NCBI RefSeq assembly: GCF_000317515.1
Contig: NC_019738.1
Span: 2,127,623-2,191,622, forward strand
From: Allocoleopsis franciscana PCC 7113
GTDB taxonomy: Bacteria; Cyanobacteriota; Cyanobacteriia; Cyanobacteriales; Coleofasciculaceae
DNA: 64,000 bases
Reading direction: 5' to 3'
In this document: piece after piece, positions 464-55,915 of the stretch
Layout: each line of letters starts with the position of its first letter
Numbering within the stretch: the first letter of the stretch is position 1
Translations under genes and position numbers: made by a program
The notes under the pieces: generated by a model
Told to the model about the DNA's origin: nothing
The model's input: the letters and a program-made list of their open reading frames with translations, nothing else
The model's database searches: none

Positions 464-1186
464 ATGAATTTAATTCAAGTCCCTCGCCGTTCTTTCTCAC
501 GCCGCCAATTTCTTCAGTTATCTGGACTTTCCAGTATGGGTCTAGTTTTGGGGGGGTGTGCGTCATCTCTGTTTGAAGATTTAGTGGGTAAAACGGTTGA
601 ACCCCTTAACCAAAGTGTTGAAACTTTATTACTCAATCCTCAAAAACCCGTCCCTGAATTTCCAGCGAGTGCGATCGAGCCAAATGCCCTAATTGTTAAT
701 ACCTTTGACTTTACACCCAAAATTGATGTTAATACATTTCATCTAACGATTGACGGTGAGGTGAATAATCCGATTAGCGTGAGTATGGAACAAATCCAGC
801 AACTGCCTCTAACTGCCATGACGATTCGTCATGTTTGTGTTGAAGGTTGGGCTGCAATTGTGCAGTGGGGTGGGGTACGATTACGGGAATTAGTTACCCT
901 TGCCCAACCCAAAGCGGATGTCAAATATATTTACTTTCAGTCAGCGGATGGGTACTACGAAAGCTGGGATATTGCTTCGGCTTTGCACCCACAAACATTG
1001 ATGGCGTATCAGAAAAACAGTCAGCCGTTAAGTATTGATAATGGTGCGCCTCTGCGTCTTGCTTCTCCGATCAAATTGGGTTACAAGCAGAGTAAATGGG
1101 TGACTCGTATTACCTTAGTGAGTCATTTGTTTCCCCGTAGGGGTTATTGGGAAGATCAGGGTTATGAATGGTTTGCGGGGTTGTGA
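464..1186 (+). CDS. Molybdopterin-dependent oxidoreductase (sulfite oxidase/MsrP-like), exported
   Basis: This 240-residue protein belongs to the oxidoreductase molybdopterin-binding family (YedY/MsrP, sulfite oxidase fold). The N terminus carries a twin-arginine motif (SRRQFLQL, residues 12-19) followed by a hydrophobic stretch and a lipobox-like LGGC with Cys32, so export by Tat and possible lipidation are likely. Cys125 in the motif RHVCVEGW is the expected molybdenum ligand. The C-terminal part (LRLASPIKLGYKQSKW) is also typical. It lies 9 bp downstream of the cytochrome b gene and probably forms a two-gene redox module with it. The family reduces or oxidises sulfur compounds, but the substrate here is unknown. 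Confidence 0.85.
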   Translation: MNLIQVPRRSFSRRQFLQLSGLSSMGLVLGGCASSLFEDLVGKTVEPLNQSVETLLLNPQKPVPEFPASAIEPNALIVNTFDFTPKIDVNTFHLTIDGEVNNPISVSMEQIQQLPLTAMTIRHVCVEGWAAIVQWGGVRLRELVTLAQPKADVKYIYFQSADGYYESWDIASALHPQTLMAYQKNSQPLSIDNGAPLRLASPIKLGYKQSKWVTRITLVSHLFPRRGYWEDQGYEWFAGL

Positions 1187-1229
1187 CAAGGAACGATGAA
1201 TATTCCATCGTGACAAGTCCACGGGTTAC

Positions 1230-2561
1230 TTATTTCTTCAGTAACAAATAATACAATTGTCCATCAGCAACCGTTACCCCAGCCCGATCACCTGCTTCTT
1301 CACCCGTTCCTAAAAAATAATCCACACGACCTGGCCCTTTAATCGCCCCTCCTGTATCTTGGTCGAGTACGTAGCGGCTGACAGTCCGAAAATCCATGCC
1401 GCCTTTGGCATTCTTAAACGGAAAAGGAGCACGAATCAGCGCAAGTGCACCCGGTGGCATCAAAGATTTATCCGTGGCAATAGAACGCGATGCCGTTAGA
1501 GGTACGCTAATACTCCCCATTGCAGGTTCACCATGATTTTCTTGGAAAAACACAAAGCTTTTGTCACGCGGGATATAAATATTCAGTTCCGCAGGATTAT
1601 CCTGAAAATACTGAAGTATTTTTGGCATCGTCATCCCTTCTAAAGGTAATTTGCCATCATCTGCCAGCGCCCGCCCGATGCTGCTATAGTTGTAAGCCGT
1701 ATGTCCCGCATAGCCTACCGTGGTTTGTTTCCCATCCGGTAGAACCAGTCGCGCAGAACCTTGAATGTGAATCATGTAAGCTTGGAGGCGATCGCGCAAC
1801 CAAAATAATTCCAATCCCCGCAATTTACCCTTGGAACTTTGCAACCCATCCTTACCTTCGAGTTGTTCACGAGTGGGGTGAGGTTTAGGCCAAGCCTCTA
1901 AATTTGAAGGTCGTCGATAGAGGGGATAGCGATATTCTGGTGTCGGCACACGACTAGCGGCATAAACCGGTTCATAATAGGCAGTGAACAATACATTCCC
2001 CAAACCGTCTTTGCCAACGGATTGGTAAAACACAAATTCCCGCTTTACAGCCGCCTCTAGTTGTTCCGGGGAACGTGATGCAAGTACCAGTTGCCGAAAG
2101 CGGACAAGGCTGCGATAAACCCGTTCGCGAGTCACCCCAGACACTCGATATTTCTGGTATGCCGCCGCCGCCGTACTACTTTGCAGGTAACGCAGACTTT
2201 GAGCCATCGCGGCTAAAAGCGCCGGCTTGTCTCCAGACTGACCCAACTCTCCCCAAAGCTGCTCATCAACACCTAAATTCTGGGTAGAGCAAGGTGGGAA
2301 GGAGATTGCCGCTTTTTTGGGTCGCACCGGTGCCCGAAAGCGGTCTTGGTCAGACATAGGCTGATAGTCATTTTGGAACCAGTTGGGAGAGGAGGAGAGT
2401 AACAGACAAGGAAGAGTAGACACTTCTGTTAAAGAAGAAGTCGCGACTTTCCCCTGTTGCAAAGCCTCATCTTTATCTCTAGATGATGGAAAGAGAGTGT
2501 AGAGAATGATCCCAATCCCGACTCCCAGACTGAGAGTGTAGCAAATAAGAGTTCGTTTCAT
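1230..2561 (-). CDS. mltA: Membrane-bound lytic murein transglycosylase A (MltA)
   Basis: This 443-residue protein has an N-terminal membrane anchor (about residues 5-24), then an MltA domain and a C-terminal 3D domain. The 3D signature is visible as GGAIKGPGRVDYFLG with nearby Asp residues (DQDTGG, GDRAG). The enzyme cleaves the MurNAc-GlcNAc bond of peptidoglycan to give 1,6-anhydro ends and acts in the periplasm. It is convergent with the oxidoreductase gene, with 43 bp between the stops. Its promoter must lie in 2562-2769. Length and domain order are normal for the cyanobacterial family. Confidence 0.93.
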   Translation of the reverse strand: MKRTLICYTLSLGVGIGIILYTLFPSSRDKDEALQQGKVATSSLTEVSTLPCLLLSSSPNWFQNDYQPMSDQDRFRAPVRPKKAAISFPPCSTQNLGVDEQLWGELGQSGDKPALLAAMAQSLRYLQSSTAAAAYQKYRVSGVTRERVYRSLVRFRQLVLASRSPEQLEAAVKREFVFYQSVGKDGLGNVLFTAYYEPVYAASRVPTPEYRYPLYRRPSNLEAWPKPHPTREQLEGKDGLQSSKGKLRGLELFWLRDRLQAYMIHIQGSARLVLPDGKQTTVGYAGHTAYNYSSIGRALADDGKLPLEGMTMPKILQYFQDNPAELNIYIPRDKSFVFFQENHGEPAMGSISVPLTASRSIATDKSLMPPGALALIRAPFPFKNAKGGMDFRTVSRYVLDQDTGGAIKGPGRVDYFLGTGEEAGDRAGVTVADGQLYYLLLKK

Positions 2562-2633
2562 ACGTCAATTCTGTGCAGTTCATCGACCATCAATCATGGG
2601 TAGAATTCTTTCCCTATTCGGTTTTCCCTCGCT

Positions 2634-47507: not shown

Positions 47508-47667
47508 ATAGAGAGTTTCCAGTATAAGGTAGCTTCACTCTTACAGCATCTTAGAGAGTATGCCGTGTTGCCATCCGTAAATCTTCTGAAATTGAGTAGA
47601 AAAGAATCTATGATAAATAAGCGAAATAACACTTGTGTGATTACATAAACTATGCATCTAAGTTAGT

Positions 47668-47793
47668 GGCTCCCGTAGCGCTACTAACTCCCATCGGTTT
47701 AGCAAGACGGACGAAAGCGGAAAATCCCATCCGTGTCGAAGTTTGGCTAAACATTCATCCGTCTTGCCTGTTATCAACCTGGTAGTGGGAGCC
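47668..47793. repeat. Long imperfect inverted repeat
   Basis: Nested complementary arms: GGCTCCC (47668-47674) with GGGAGCC (47787-47793), and GCAAGACGGACGA (47702-47714) with TCATCCGTCTTGC (47755-47767, one mismatch). An alternative local hairpin is GTTAGTGGC (47662-47670) with GCTACTAAC. It begins at the stop of paralogue 2 on the minus strand and may be a terminator, a structured RNA or a miniature element. Confidence 0.5.
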
Positions 47794-48072
47794 TTAGTGG
47801 GGAGAGACGGGTTCGTCCTTGATTAAGTTCTGCCAACTCTCCTTTTTTGGTGCTTTTGCTAGTGAGAGTACCCTTTTAACGAAGGATTCGCCGGTTACCA
47901 CAACGACTGAAGCGGCCAAAACGACGAAGGCAAAAGCGGTAAACACCAACATTAACAACATAGAGGTGAGTCTTTGAGCCAGACTTCCTGCAAACACAAC
48001 GACTCTCGTTTTAAGGATAAAGCTCAAACACTGTGTAACTCGGTTTGATGGCTCCAACTGATTACGTTCCAT
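47794..48072 (-). CDS. Small single-pass membrane protein, paralogue 2
   Basis: A 92-residue frame with the same architecture as the protein at 47274: transmembrane helix at about 36-63 and tail LAKAPKKESWQN. The first 30 residues (MERNQLEPSNRVTQ...) have no counterpart in paralogue 1, so a later start is possible. The two genes are about 290 bp apart, in the same orientation, and probably arose by tandem duplication. Function unknown; position suggests a link with the surface polysaccharide. Confidence 0.6.
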   Translation of the reverse strand: MERNQLEPSNRVTQCLSFILKTRVVVFAGSLAQRLTSMLLMLVFTAFAFVVLAASVVVVTGESFVKRVLSLAKAPKKESWQNLIKDEPVSPH

Positions 48073-52054: not shown

Positions 52055-52201
52055 GCTAGACTGTGGCTTTACGCCCCAATGATTTGAAGGTTACGCATGA
52101 TTGCATCGAAAGTGCGATCGCATCAGTGGCAGTGAGGAGATTCCCTACAAGATAAGCTGTTACGCATGTAATTTGCTTGTTGAGGCGGCGGGGGAGCAGG
52201 G

Positions 52202-52219
52202 CCAGAGCTTTAGTGAGGA
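52202..52219 (+). repeat. 18-bp dispersed element, copy A
   Basis: CCAGAGCTTTAGTGAGGA lies inside a GGGGAGCAGG purine tract, splitting what would otherwise be a continuous tandem. It matches copy B at 55131-55148 in 17 of 18 positions. Confidence 0.7.
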
Positions 52220-52328
52220 CAGGGGAGCAGGGGAGAGGATTTGAGCTCTTTTATCCTGTGTTTAGAATGTGCAAGTTAAATGCGCTTTAGCTTACCTTTG
52301 CCTCGCCTGTTGGAAAACCCAATCATTG

Positions 52329-52365
52329 TGCGATGCCTACGGCGGTTCGCGCAGCGACCATCGCA
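52329..52365. repeat. Cyanobacterial palindromic repeat
   Basis: TGCGATG (52329-52335) and CATCGCA (52359-52365) are complementary ends around a GC-rich core (CCTACGGCGGTTCGCGCAGC). I recall similar segments between genes in filamentous cyanobacteria. Confidence 0.5.
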
Positions 52366-52462
52366 TAATGTCCGCGCAACACCAAAAATCTTCCTATGAT
52401 TTGCATAAGCTGAGTTTTTAGAGATATAGAAAAACTGGGTAAGAGAGTGAGGCATCGCCATC

Positions 52463-55400
52463 ATGAAGGGAAAAGCACCAGTCAGGAAAGCGCTACCGTG
52501 GGCGGTTACACTCATCACAGTCATGGAGTTACTGGGTGGAGTACCAGCACCCGTGGTAGGGCAAGCCAATCCCCCCCAGTCTGCCCAACAGTCAGCAGAG
52601 CTGGAGGAAGCTAAGCGGCTGAACCAACAGGTAGTTCAGCTTATAAACCAAGGGCAGTACGCTGCTGCCATTCCCCTGGCAGAACGCACCCTCGATATCC
52701 TCGAAAAAGTGCTGGGCAAAGAACACCCCGTTGTTGCCAGCAGTCTCAACAATCTGGCAAATCTGTACGTGGAGATGGGAAACTACAGCCAAGCCGAACC
52801 CTTGTACCAACGCTCTTTAGCAATCTCCGAGAAAGTGCTGGGTAAAGAGCATCCCGATGTTGCACAAAGTCTCAACAATCTGGTAGCGCTGTACCACACA
52901 CAGGGGAACTACAGCCAAGCCGAACCTCTGGTGCAACGCTCCCTCGCTATCCGAGAGAAAGTGCTGGGCAAAGATCATCCCGATGTTGCACAAAGTCTCA
53001 ACAATCTGGCAGAACTGTACAAGGCACAGGGAAACTACAGCCAAGCTGAACCTTTATACCAACGCTCCCTAGCAATCGAAGAGAAAGTACTGGGCAAAGA
53101 TCATCCCGAGGTTGCACAAAGTCTCAACAATTTGGCAAGGCTGTACGAAGTACAGGGGAACTACAGCCAAGCAGAACCCCTGTACCAACGATCCTTAGCA
53201 ATCCGCGAGAAAGTGCTGGGTTCTGAACATCCCGATTTTGCCACCGGTCTCTACGCTCTGGCAGTGCTGTACCAGGCACAGGGGAACTACAGCCAAGCAG
53301 AACCTCTGTACCAACGCTCTTTGGCAATCTCGGAGAGAGTACTGGGTTCTGAACATCCCGATTTTGCCACCAGTCTCAACGGTCTGGCATCGCTGTATAT
53401 AGCACAAGGGAATTACAGCCAAGCTGAACCCCTGTTGCAACGCTCTTTAGCCATCCGGGAGAGAGTACTGGGCAAAGAACATCCCGATGTTGCCCTCAGT
53501 CTCAACAATCTAGCAGGACTGTACCAGGTACAGGGAAACTACAGCCAAGCCGAACCCCTTTACCAACGCTCCCTCGCTATCCGAGAGAAAGTGCTGGGTT
53601 CTGAGCATCCCGATGTTGCACAAAGTCTTAACAATCTGGGAGGGCTGTACAACGCACAGGGAAACTACAGCCAAGCTGAACCTCTATTGCAACGCTCCTT
53701 GGCAATTTTGGAGAAGGCGTTGGGCAAAGAGCATTCCCTTGTTGCCACCAGTCTAGGCAATCTGGCAATACTGTACCAGTATATGGGAAACTACAGCCAA
53801 GCCGAACCCCTTTACCAACGCTCCATCGCAATCGAAGAGAAAGTGCTGGGCAAAGAGCATCCCGATGTTGCACAAAGTCTCAACAATCTGGCAAATCTGT
53901 ACAACGCACAGGGAAACTACAGTCAAGCCGAACCTCTATTGCAACGCTCCTTGGCAATTTTGGAGAAGGCGTTGGGCAAAGAACAGCCCCATATTGCCAC
54001 CAGCCTCAGGAATCTGGCATGGTTGTACCAAGCGCAAGGTGACACCGCCCGTGCCCTGGAATTCAAAACCCGTGCCACCAACATCGAAGAACGCAACCTC
54101 GCCCTTATCCTCACCACTGGCTCTGAAGCCCGAAAACGCGCCTACATGGCTACCCTCTCCGGTTACACTAACGCTAATATTTCTTTGCACGTCCAAGGCG
54201 TACCCAACAACCCGGAAGCTGCCCGCCTCGCCCTCACCACCACCTTACAACGCAAAGGTCGCATCCTCGATGCCCTCACCGACAGCCTGCAAACCCTACG
54301 CCAAAACCTCAAACCCGAAGACCAAACTTTACTCAGCCAACTCGCTGATACTCGCTCCCAGTTAGCCGCCTTAATCTTCAATAAACCCGAAGACATCCCA
54401 CTTGAACAATACCAACAGCAAGTCGCCACGCTCAAAGCTCAAGCCGAACAACTGGAAAATACCCTCTCCCGCCGCAGCGCCGAGTTCCGCACCGAAACCC
54501 AACCCGTCACCATCGAAGCGGTGCAGCAGTTAATTCCTACCGATACTGCCTTAGTTGAACTGGTACAGTACAAACCCTTCAACGCCAAAGCCACAAAACA
54601 AAATGAAAAATGGGGTAAACCTCGCTACGTCGCCTACATCCTGCACTCCAAAGGCAATATCCAATGGATAGACTTAGGCGAAGCTGCACCCATCAACCAA
54701 GCCGTTGAAGACTTCCGCAACGCCCTGCAATCCCCAACCTCAACTATCAAACCCATCGCCCGTACCTTAGATGAACTCTTGATGCAGCCCATCCGCCAAA
54801 AATTGGGCAATACTCGCACCATCCTCCTTTCCCCCGATAGCCAACTCAACCTCATCCCCTTCGCCGCCTTAGTTGATGAAAATAACCGCTATCTGGTCGA
54901 GAACTATTCCATCAATTACCTCAGTTCCGGACGCGACTTACTGCGCCTGCAAAACCACACTCCAAGCCGCTCAGAATCCGTCATTGTCGCTAATCCCGAC
55001 TACGACAAACCCGGCAATCCCTCAGTGAAAATAGCCAGTCAGCGGGGAACCTCTCCCCCAACCCCTCTCCTACGAGGAGAGGGGAGTAGGAGTAATAGTA
55101 ATCTTGTTCCCCCCTTCCCTGCTAGGGAAGCCGGAGCTTTAGTGAGGAGGCTAGGGGGGTTAGGTCAAACTCGCAGCACCGAAAACCAACGCTCATCAGA
55201 TCTCAGCCAATTCCAATTCGGCCCCTTACCTGGCACCGCCAAAGAAGCCGCCGCCATTACCCCCATGCTGCCAGGAGTCACACTCCTCACCGGCTCAGAT
55301 GCCACCGAAAATGCAATCAAACAACTCCAAGCCCCAAAGATTCTACATATCGCCACTCACGGCTTCTTCCTCAGCGATGTTGAACTCGTTGCCCCTGCTG

Positions 55401-55915
55401 ATTTCGGCGGTAGCACCTTTCTCTCCAACCGAGGACTGGGGGTAGAAGCGCGTCCCGGTATTGTTCCCAATTCCCCACCCGGCAAAACTGAAAACCCCCT
55501 ACTGCGTTCTGGAATTGCTCTGGCTGGTTTCAACCCGCGCCAGAGTGGCACTGAAGATGGCGTACTGACAGCATTAGAAACCGCCAGCCTCAACTTACGG
55601 GGAACAAAATTAGTGGTACTTTCCGCCTGCGAAACGGGATTAGGAGATGTGGCAAACGGAGAAGGCGTTTATGGCTTACGTCGAGCATTATCCATAGCCG
55701 GTGCCGAAAGTCAAGCCATCAGCCTGTGGAAAGTCTCGGATGAAGGGACAAAAGACTTAATGGTGAGCTATTATCAACGCTTACTCAATAATGTAGGACG
55801 GTCTGAAGCCATGCGCCAAACTCAATTAGAGATGTTGCAAAATCCAACTTACCAACATCCCTTCTACTGGGCAGCGTTCATCCCCTCAGGCAACTGGACG
55901 GCTATGGGATACTAG
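52463..55915 (+). CDS. Secreted TPR-CHAT domain protein
   Basis: A 1150-residue protein. Signal peptide about 1-34 (ending VVGQA). About 12 tetratricopeptide units of 42 residues (roughly 40-540), of the kinesin light-chain type, with near-identical wording (GNYSQAEPLYQRSLAI). A helical linker follows, then a C-terminal CHAT caspase-like domain (about 690-1150) with His966 in HIATHGF and Cys1056 in SACETG, so the protease dyad is present. The CHAT domain contains an insertion of about 40 residues (862-901) built from repeat DNA at 55047-55166. Likely exported; substrate unknown. Confidence 0.9.
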   Translation: MKGKAPVRKALPWAVTLITVMELLGGVPAPVVGQANPPQSAQQSAELEEAKRLNQQVVQLINQGQYAAAIPLAERTLDILEKVLGKEHPVVASSLNNLANLYVEMGNYSQAEPLYQRSLAISEKVLGKEHPDVAQSLNNLVALYHTQGNYSQAEPLVQRSLAIREKVLGKDHPDVAQSLNNLAELYKAQGNYSQAEPLYQRSLAIEEKVLGKDHPEVAQSLNNLARLYEVQGNYSQAEPLYQRSLAIREKVLGSEHPDFATGLYALAVLYQAQGNYSQAEPLYQRSLAISERVLGSEHPDFATSLNGLASLYIAQGNYSQAEPLLQRSLAIRERVLGKEHPDVALSLNNLAGLYQVQGNYSQAEPLYQRSLAIREKVLGSEHPDVAQSLNNLGGLYNAQGNYSQAEPLLQRSLAILEKALGKEHSLVATSLGNLAILYQYMGNYSQAEPLYQRSIAIEEKVLGKEHPDVAQSLNNLANLYNAQGNYSQAEPLLQRSLAILEKALGKEQPHIATSLRNLAWLYQAQGDTARALEFKTRATNIEERNLALILTTGSEARKRAYMATLSGYTNANISLHVQGVPNNPEAARLALTTTLQRKGRILDALTDSLQTLRQNLKPEDQTLLSQLADTRSQLAALIFNKPEDIPLEQYQQQVATLKAQAEQLENTLSRRSAEFRTETQPVTIEAVQQLIPTDTALVELVQYKPFNAKATKQNEKWGKPRYVAYILHSKGNIQWIDLGEAAPINQAVEDFRNALQSPTSTIKPIARTLDELLMQPIRQKLGNTRTILLSPDSQLNLIPFAALVDENNRYLVENYSINYLSSGRDLLRLQNHTPSRSESVIVANPDYDKPGNPSVKIASQRGTSPPTPLLRGEGSRSNSNLVPPFPAREAGALVRRLGGLGQTRSTENQRSSDLSQFQFGPLPGTAKEAAAITPMLPGVTLLTGSDATENAIKQLQAPKILHIATHGFFLSDVELVAPADFGGSTFLSNRGLGVEARPGIVPNSPPGKTENPLLRSGIALAGFNPRQSGTEDGVLTALETASLNLRGTKLVVLSACETGLGDVANGEGVYGLRRALSIAGAESQAISLWKVSDEGTKDLMVSYYQRLLNNVGRSEAMRQTQLEMLQNPTYQHPFYWAAFIPSGNWTAMGY
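55047..55166 (+). repeat. Palindromic repeat element absorbed into the CHAT reading frame
   Basis: Contains two perfect hairpins: CCCCTCTCCT (55062-55071) with AGGAGAGGGG (55075-55084), and CTTCCCT (55114-55120) with AGGGAAG (55124-55130). The text is that of a common cyanobacterial intergenic repeat ending in GGGTTAGGT. It keeps the frame open and encodes TSPPTPLLRGEG and related residues. Confidence 0.7.
55131..55148 (+). repeat. 18-bp dispersed element, copy B (within the CHAT gene)
   Basis: CCGGAGCTTTAGTGAGGA is inserted right after the second hairpin of the repeat element, where the intergenic version would normally continue with G-rich sequence. It differs from copy A by one base and is a multiple of three long, so the frame is kept. 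Confidence 0.7.

Follow-up and report, generated by a model that had tools for sequence, protein, structure and literature searches.

The window analysed here is a 64,000-nt stretch of the Allocoleopsis franciscana PCC 7113 genome (G000, 7.97 Mb in nine contigs; contig C1, positions 2127623-2191622), in which an earlier note had pointed out two copies of an 18-bp element, one splitting a purine tandem tract and the other a palindromic repeat inside a CHAT gene. Both copies were found where the note had placed them, on the forward strand: CCAGAGCTTTAGTGAGGA at 52202-52219, a variant with A at position 3, and CCGGAGCTTTAGTGAGGA at 55131-55148. A search of the 64 kb with up to three mismatches gave these two matches against 0.03 expected by chance, and the observation is confirmed. 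Copy 1 lies within an octamer tract of GGGGAGCA (52190-52238, +; locus L016, where L numbers denote fetched loci), 243 bp before an open TPR-CHAT gene of 1150 aa (52463-55915, +; Pfam CHAT at residues 764-1144), and copy 2 lies inside this gene. The host of copy 2 is a 140-bp repeat with palindromes (55028-55167, +), inserted in frame in the CHAT domain and absent from the orthologue of the same-genus genome G001, which has 11 bp instead (net 129 bp). The note also held that removal of the element appears to restore the host repeat, which is right only up to three bases: across copy 1 the octamer is out of phase by 3 (CAGGG[GAG]CAGG, with GAG missing by consensus), and the palindrome around copy 2 has 6 C against 1+2 G. 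A weaker look-alike proposed at 47788 lacks both conserved ends of the element (see below), is not among the genome-wide matches at up to three mismatches and is unrelated; it is surrounded by an interrupted inverted repeat (GTGGCTCCCGTAGCGCTACTAACTCCC ... TGGTAGTGGGAGCC) at 47660-47803.

Copy number, ends and distribution of the family

A genome-wide search for the 18-mer allowing two mismatches had been named in the note as the test of mobility, with only two copies in the genome counting against it. We found 58 exact copies of CCRGAGCTTTAGTGAGGA in G000 (pattern CC[AG]GAGCTTTAGTGAGGA) on contigs C1, C3 and C7, which are the chromosome and two other contigs, together with 12 copies with one mismatch and eight with two, whereas the same pattern read backwards gave only four matches (3+1) even at three mismatches, so that chance or low complexity was rejected. 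The 18-mer is the commonest member of a family of 17-20-mers, CCGGAG-N5..9-GAGGA, with fixed ends and a core variable in length and sequence. The pattern CCGGAG-N4..10-GAGGA gave 126 matches in G000 (reversed control 5) and 192 in G001 (control 10). Recurring cores include CTTTAGT, CTCATAC, TTCATAC, ATGAGAGT/C, CTCTCGCGT, CTCTTATGT, CCGAAGGT, CGAAGGT, CGAAGT, CAAAGCGT and CCAAGCGT, and the last core base is nearly always T or C. Different members occupy the same position of the same host: AAGGCAGA|element|CAGAAGG was found with CTTTAGT, ATGAGAGT or CTCTCGCGT, and the octamer tract of window copy 1 has paralogues with CTTTAGT (L019) or CTCATAC (L185, L186, L192). At the same homologous position of L101 and L182 (about 71% over 648 bp) one genome has core CTTTAGT and another CTCATAC, reflecting either core replacement in place or two independent insertions at one site.

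Besides G000, the exact 18-mer was detected 69 times in G001, 19 times in G104, ten times in G111, eight times in G392, six times in G351, five times in G006 and four times in G031 (G numbers denote cyanobacterial genomes, f and g numbers their families and genera), thus in at least four families (f1, f8, f13 and f20). The family pattern is well above its reversed control in G000, four g24 genomes, G104/G108 and G111, with enrichment in f1/g1, f13/g24, f8/g19 and f20/g35, and near control in most of 386 cyanobacterial genomes, including the large family f19, inferred to be Nostocaceae. A scan of 84,980 prokaryote species found 41 stretches, all in cyanobacterial records (Symplocastrum, Synechocystis, Limnothrix, Coleofasciculus, Microcoleus, Tychonema, Halothece and the MAG SW_9_44_58). 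The patchy presence of one identical word in distant families means either horizontal spread or strong constraint on the core, and our data do not distinguish between the two. Carriage by phages was rejected, as no exact copy was found in 2.9 million viral contigs. Copies are depleted from genes, as seven of 30 lie in open frames of 150 aa or more, compared to 65% of random positions in the same loci. A conserved binding site or regulatory motif that arose repeatedly by selection could account for the near-perfect identity of the 58 copies and their location mostly outside genes. However, we consider this the least likely explanation, because the element appears as a block replacing three bases inside unrelated repeats, genes and itself, the core varies freely while the ends do not, and the element is absent from most relatives.

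Replacement of three host bases and nested copies

We were next interested in the state of the hosts without the element, as flanks in relatives that do not align in its absence had been named in advance as evidence against mobility. Sites without the element do align in homologous sequence, but simple insertion without loss of host bases was rejected by the tandem-phase and empty-site tests: each copy stands in place of three host bases, mostly purines. The host GGAGA-N-GTTTGGAGAGAGG in G000 and G001 contains GAG in 11 places and the 18-mer in four. In tandem hosts, among them AAGGCAG heptamers and the GGGGAGCA octamers, the two flanks are out of phase by exactly 3 in 14 of 14 scorable sites, 11 of period 7 and three of period 8. 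In G-rich hairpin hosts, the length of the C arm minus the G's flanking the element is 3 in 44 of 57 sites and in 11 of 17 more from distant families. In the tandem and hairpin tests the empty state is reconstructed from the repeat itself, and 19 of the 74 hairpin hosts deviate from 3. Homologous empty sites in longer alignments, L169 compared to L008 (630 bp, 78%) and L097/L102 compared to L232 (472 bp, 74%), showed a net difference of 15 bp. The cleanest case is a unique coding host, a tnpB gene (OrfB_IS605) in G351, which reads GAG A[element]CATGG where homologues read GAA A[GGG]CGTGG (L219) and GAA T[GGG]CATAT (L041), with the frame kept and five extra residues around the site. The replaced triplets are mostly purine triplets (GGG, GAG, AGG, GAA) and sometimes GCG or CGG, replaced purine strand to purine strand. 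Flanks of 218 distinct sites showed a purine at -1 in 95% and at -2 in 83%, G/C at +1 in 81%, a purine at +2 in 78% and G/T at +3 in 83%, giving the preferred flanks RR[RRR]SRK.

Members also sit inside members, where the host is known exactly: CCG[GAG]CTTTAGTGAGGA and CCGGAGCGA[AGG]TGAGGA, each with the bracketed triplet replaced and with several inner cores. The un-nested CCGGAGCGAAGGTGAGGA was not found in G000 and G001, but CCGGAGCGA[member]TGAGGA (33-35 nt) and CCGGAGCGACCG[member]CTTTAGTGAGGATGAGGA (48 nt) occur in many unrelated hosts, while the un-nested form has 7-11 copies in G149, G392 and G006. The simplest reading is that composites spread as units, so that the ends suffice, seem to define the moving unit instead of the core, and the core can be long. 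That several different members sit at the same internal site shows repeated hits there as well.

An alternative would be passive hitchhiking, with the element having entered a few repeat families long ago and then being copied only as part of those repeats. Some copies indeed share long flanks (L016/L019 and L117/L120/L123), so that independent events are fewer than copies, and several copies of the CHAT-type host repeat carry the element at the same place. As the work relied on pattern searches and fetched loci, independent insertion events were not counted exhaustively. Nevertheless, hosts are of many unrelated kinds (heptamers, octamers, several palindromic repeats, other family members and the unique tnpB site, which already weakens this reading), each host kind also exists without the element, and different cores occupy the same host position, making hitchhiking as the sole explanation unlikely. 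Among the fetched loci only one G000 site (L043/L134) was filled at the orthologous place in G001, although this low sharing could partly reflect turnover of the hosts.

Interpretation, possible movers and related repeats

Therefore, from copy number, fixed ends, empty sites and nesting, the 18-mer is, in the explanation we hold with fair but not full confidence, the dominant member of a family of very small, non-coding dispersed elements, 5'-CCGGAG-N4..8-Y-GAGGA-3', and one of the smallest mobile-looking DNA elements. The interpretation of the note, a very small mobile repeat of the cyanobacterial small dispersed repeat (SDR) kind that targets other repeats, is supported, with the refinements that the element replaces 3 bp instead of simply inserting, that it prefers purine triplets, which abound in repeats, but also sits in unique coding DNA, and that it is one member of a family. 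Our data demonstrate directly the fixed ends and variable core, dozens of copies per genome in a patchy set of cyanobacteria, the replacement of three bases with its purine-strand orientation and preferred flanks, different members at the same host position, and the nesting and dispersal of composites with the same outer ends. We only infer from this that the elements are copied to new places by something that recognises the ends, opens the target over a 3-nt stretch that is lost, and joins in a single-stranded DNA or RNA-derived copy, as no enzyme, intermediate or live transposition event has been seen and mobility rests on comparisons of filled and empty sites. The elements carry no gene, so the activity would act in trans. 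Purine tandem tracts and G-rich hairpins are probably preferred because they are rich in the target triplet, tend to become single-stranded and tolerate insertions.

The mover is unknown. Single-stranded DNA transposition by a Y1/RAYT-type HUH enzyme, as proposed for REPINs (PMC3116915), might be suggested by hosts that include hairpins and REP-like palindromes, and by one copy (L047, G000:C1:6681816-6681833) that lies 67 bp before the only intact Y1 transposase gene found in G000. However, G104, with 19 exact copies, has no Y1_Tnp match, the element is not a stable hairpin, and relatives rich in Y1 genes (G002, G007) lack it. Absence of Y1 genes from carriers with recent insertions is the finding expected to exclude this route, and G104 is already such a case if its insertions are recent; we regard the route as very unlikely. 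Likewise, carrier G111 has no RVT_1 reverse transcriptase match, whereas G149, a g24 genome of 3.8 Mb, has 31, far more than its relatives searched alongside. Neither class is thus present in every carrier today, although either could have been lost after the spread, and a host nuclease/repair activity or a still unrecognised enzyme is more likely than either.

A lead for an RNA origin, but no proof, comes from the 16S rRNA of g24 genomes (L213, 16S gene at 1146-2633, minus strand, confirmed by Rfam; L229; L235), which contains CCGGAGGAAGGTGAGGA, one base short of the abundant member CCGGAGCGAAGGTGAGGA. This member, CCGGAG-C-GAAGGT-GAGGA, equals the 16S word CCGGAG-GAAGGT-GAGGA plus one C, and three of 200,000 shuffles came as close to that 3-kb rRNA locus, about 1e-3 after allowing roughly for the number of members and RNAs. 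RNA-mediated insertion, in which the family would descend from a 16S fragment that was reverse-transcribed and joined at purine triplets, with cores diverging afterwards, is nevertheless doubtful in view of G111, because most members share only the ends with 16S, the 16S of G000 lacks the searched word, and the resemblance was found after the fact. A more far-reaching possibility, which is compatible with our data but which we consider less likely than not, would be a distinct mode of DNA mobility, in which units defined only by the two short ends, with a core of 5 to about 37 nt, are written into DNA by swapping out a purine triplet, without a Y1 transposase or RVT_1 reverse transcriptase in the genome, possibly through an RNA or single-stranded copy whose founder was a 16S rRNA fragment.

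The family most resembles SDR1-SDR8 of Nostoc punctiforme and relatives (Elhai et al., 2008, Genome Res 18:1484; cited in PMC4390886), which are non-coding repeats of about 20 nt in many copies, embedded in heptameric tandem repeats and mini-transposon-like repeats and nested within themselves, with precise insertion points and no known enzyme. Many dispersed near-identical copies, embedding in tandem heptamers and in palindromic repeats, and self-insertion (composites of 33, 34, 35 and 48 nt) were all observed here. A common predicted secondary structure with compensatory changes, as reported for SDR4-SDR6, was also looked for, but a weak shared fold (-1.2 kcal/mol, z 0.2) without covariation above shuffles leaves this point undecided. 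The present elements are slightly shorter (17-20 compared to 21-27 nt), have fixed ends with a variable core, replace three host bases and show no sign of HIP1 targeting, while SDR5 is reported to lie between nt 3 and 4 of HIP1 (PMC4390886). They are also not confined to a subgroup around Nostoc, with the f19 genomes at background. They appear to be a separate family with a three-base swap rule; none of the papers searched prints the sequences, and neither identity to SDR1-SDR8 nor loss of bases by those repeats was examined here. Like REPINs and RAYT-associated REPs (PMC3116915), they are very short non-autonomous dispersed repeats mostly between genes, but they are not palindromic, form no stable hairpin that could be the mobile feature, do not depend on Y1_Tnp genes, and insert into REP-like palindromes instead of being one. 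With MITEs they share being non-autonomous repeats that need a trans-acting mover, but they are much smaller, CCGGAG and GAGGA are not inverted repeats, and three bases are lost with no target-site duplication. Elements of about 20 nt look too small for a transposase to hold two separate ends, and how such repeats spread has, to our knowledge, been open since their description in 2008. The family described here gives a sharp, testable rule (element in, three bases out), points to the ends as the recognised part, shows nested composites spreading as units, and supplies genera with carrier and non-carrier species in which the responsible activity can be sought, for example g19 with G104 and G108 as carriers and G026 and G121 as non-carriers.
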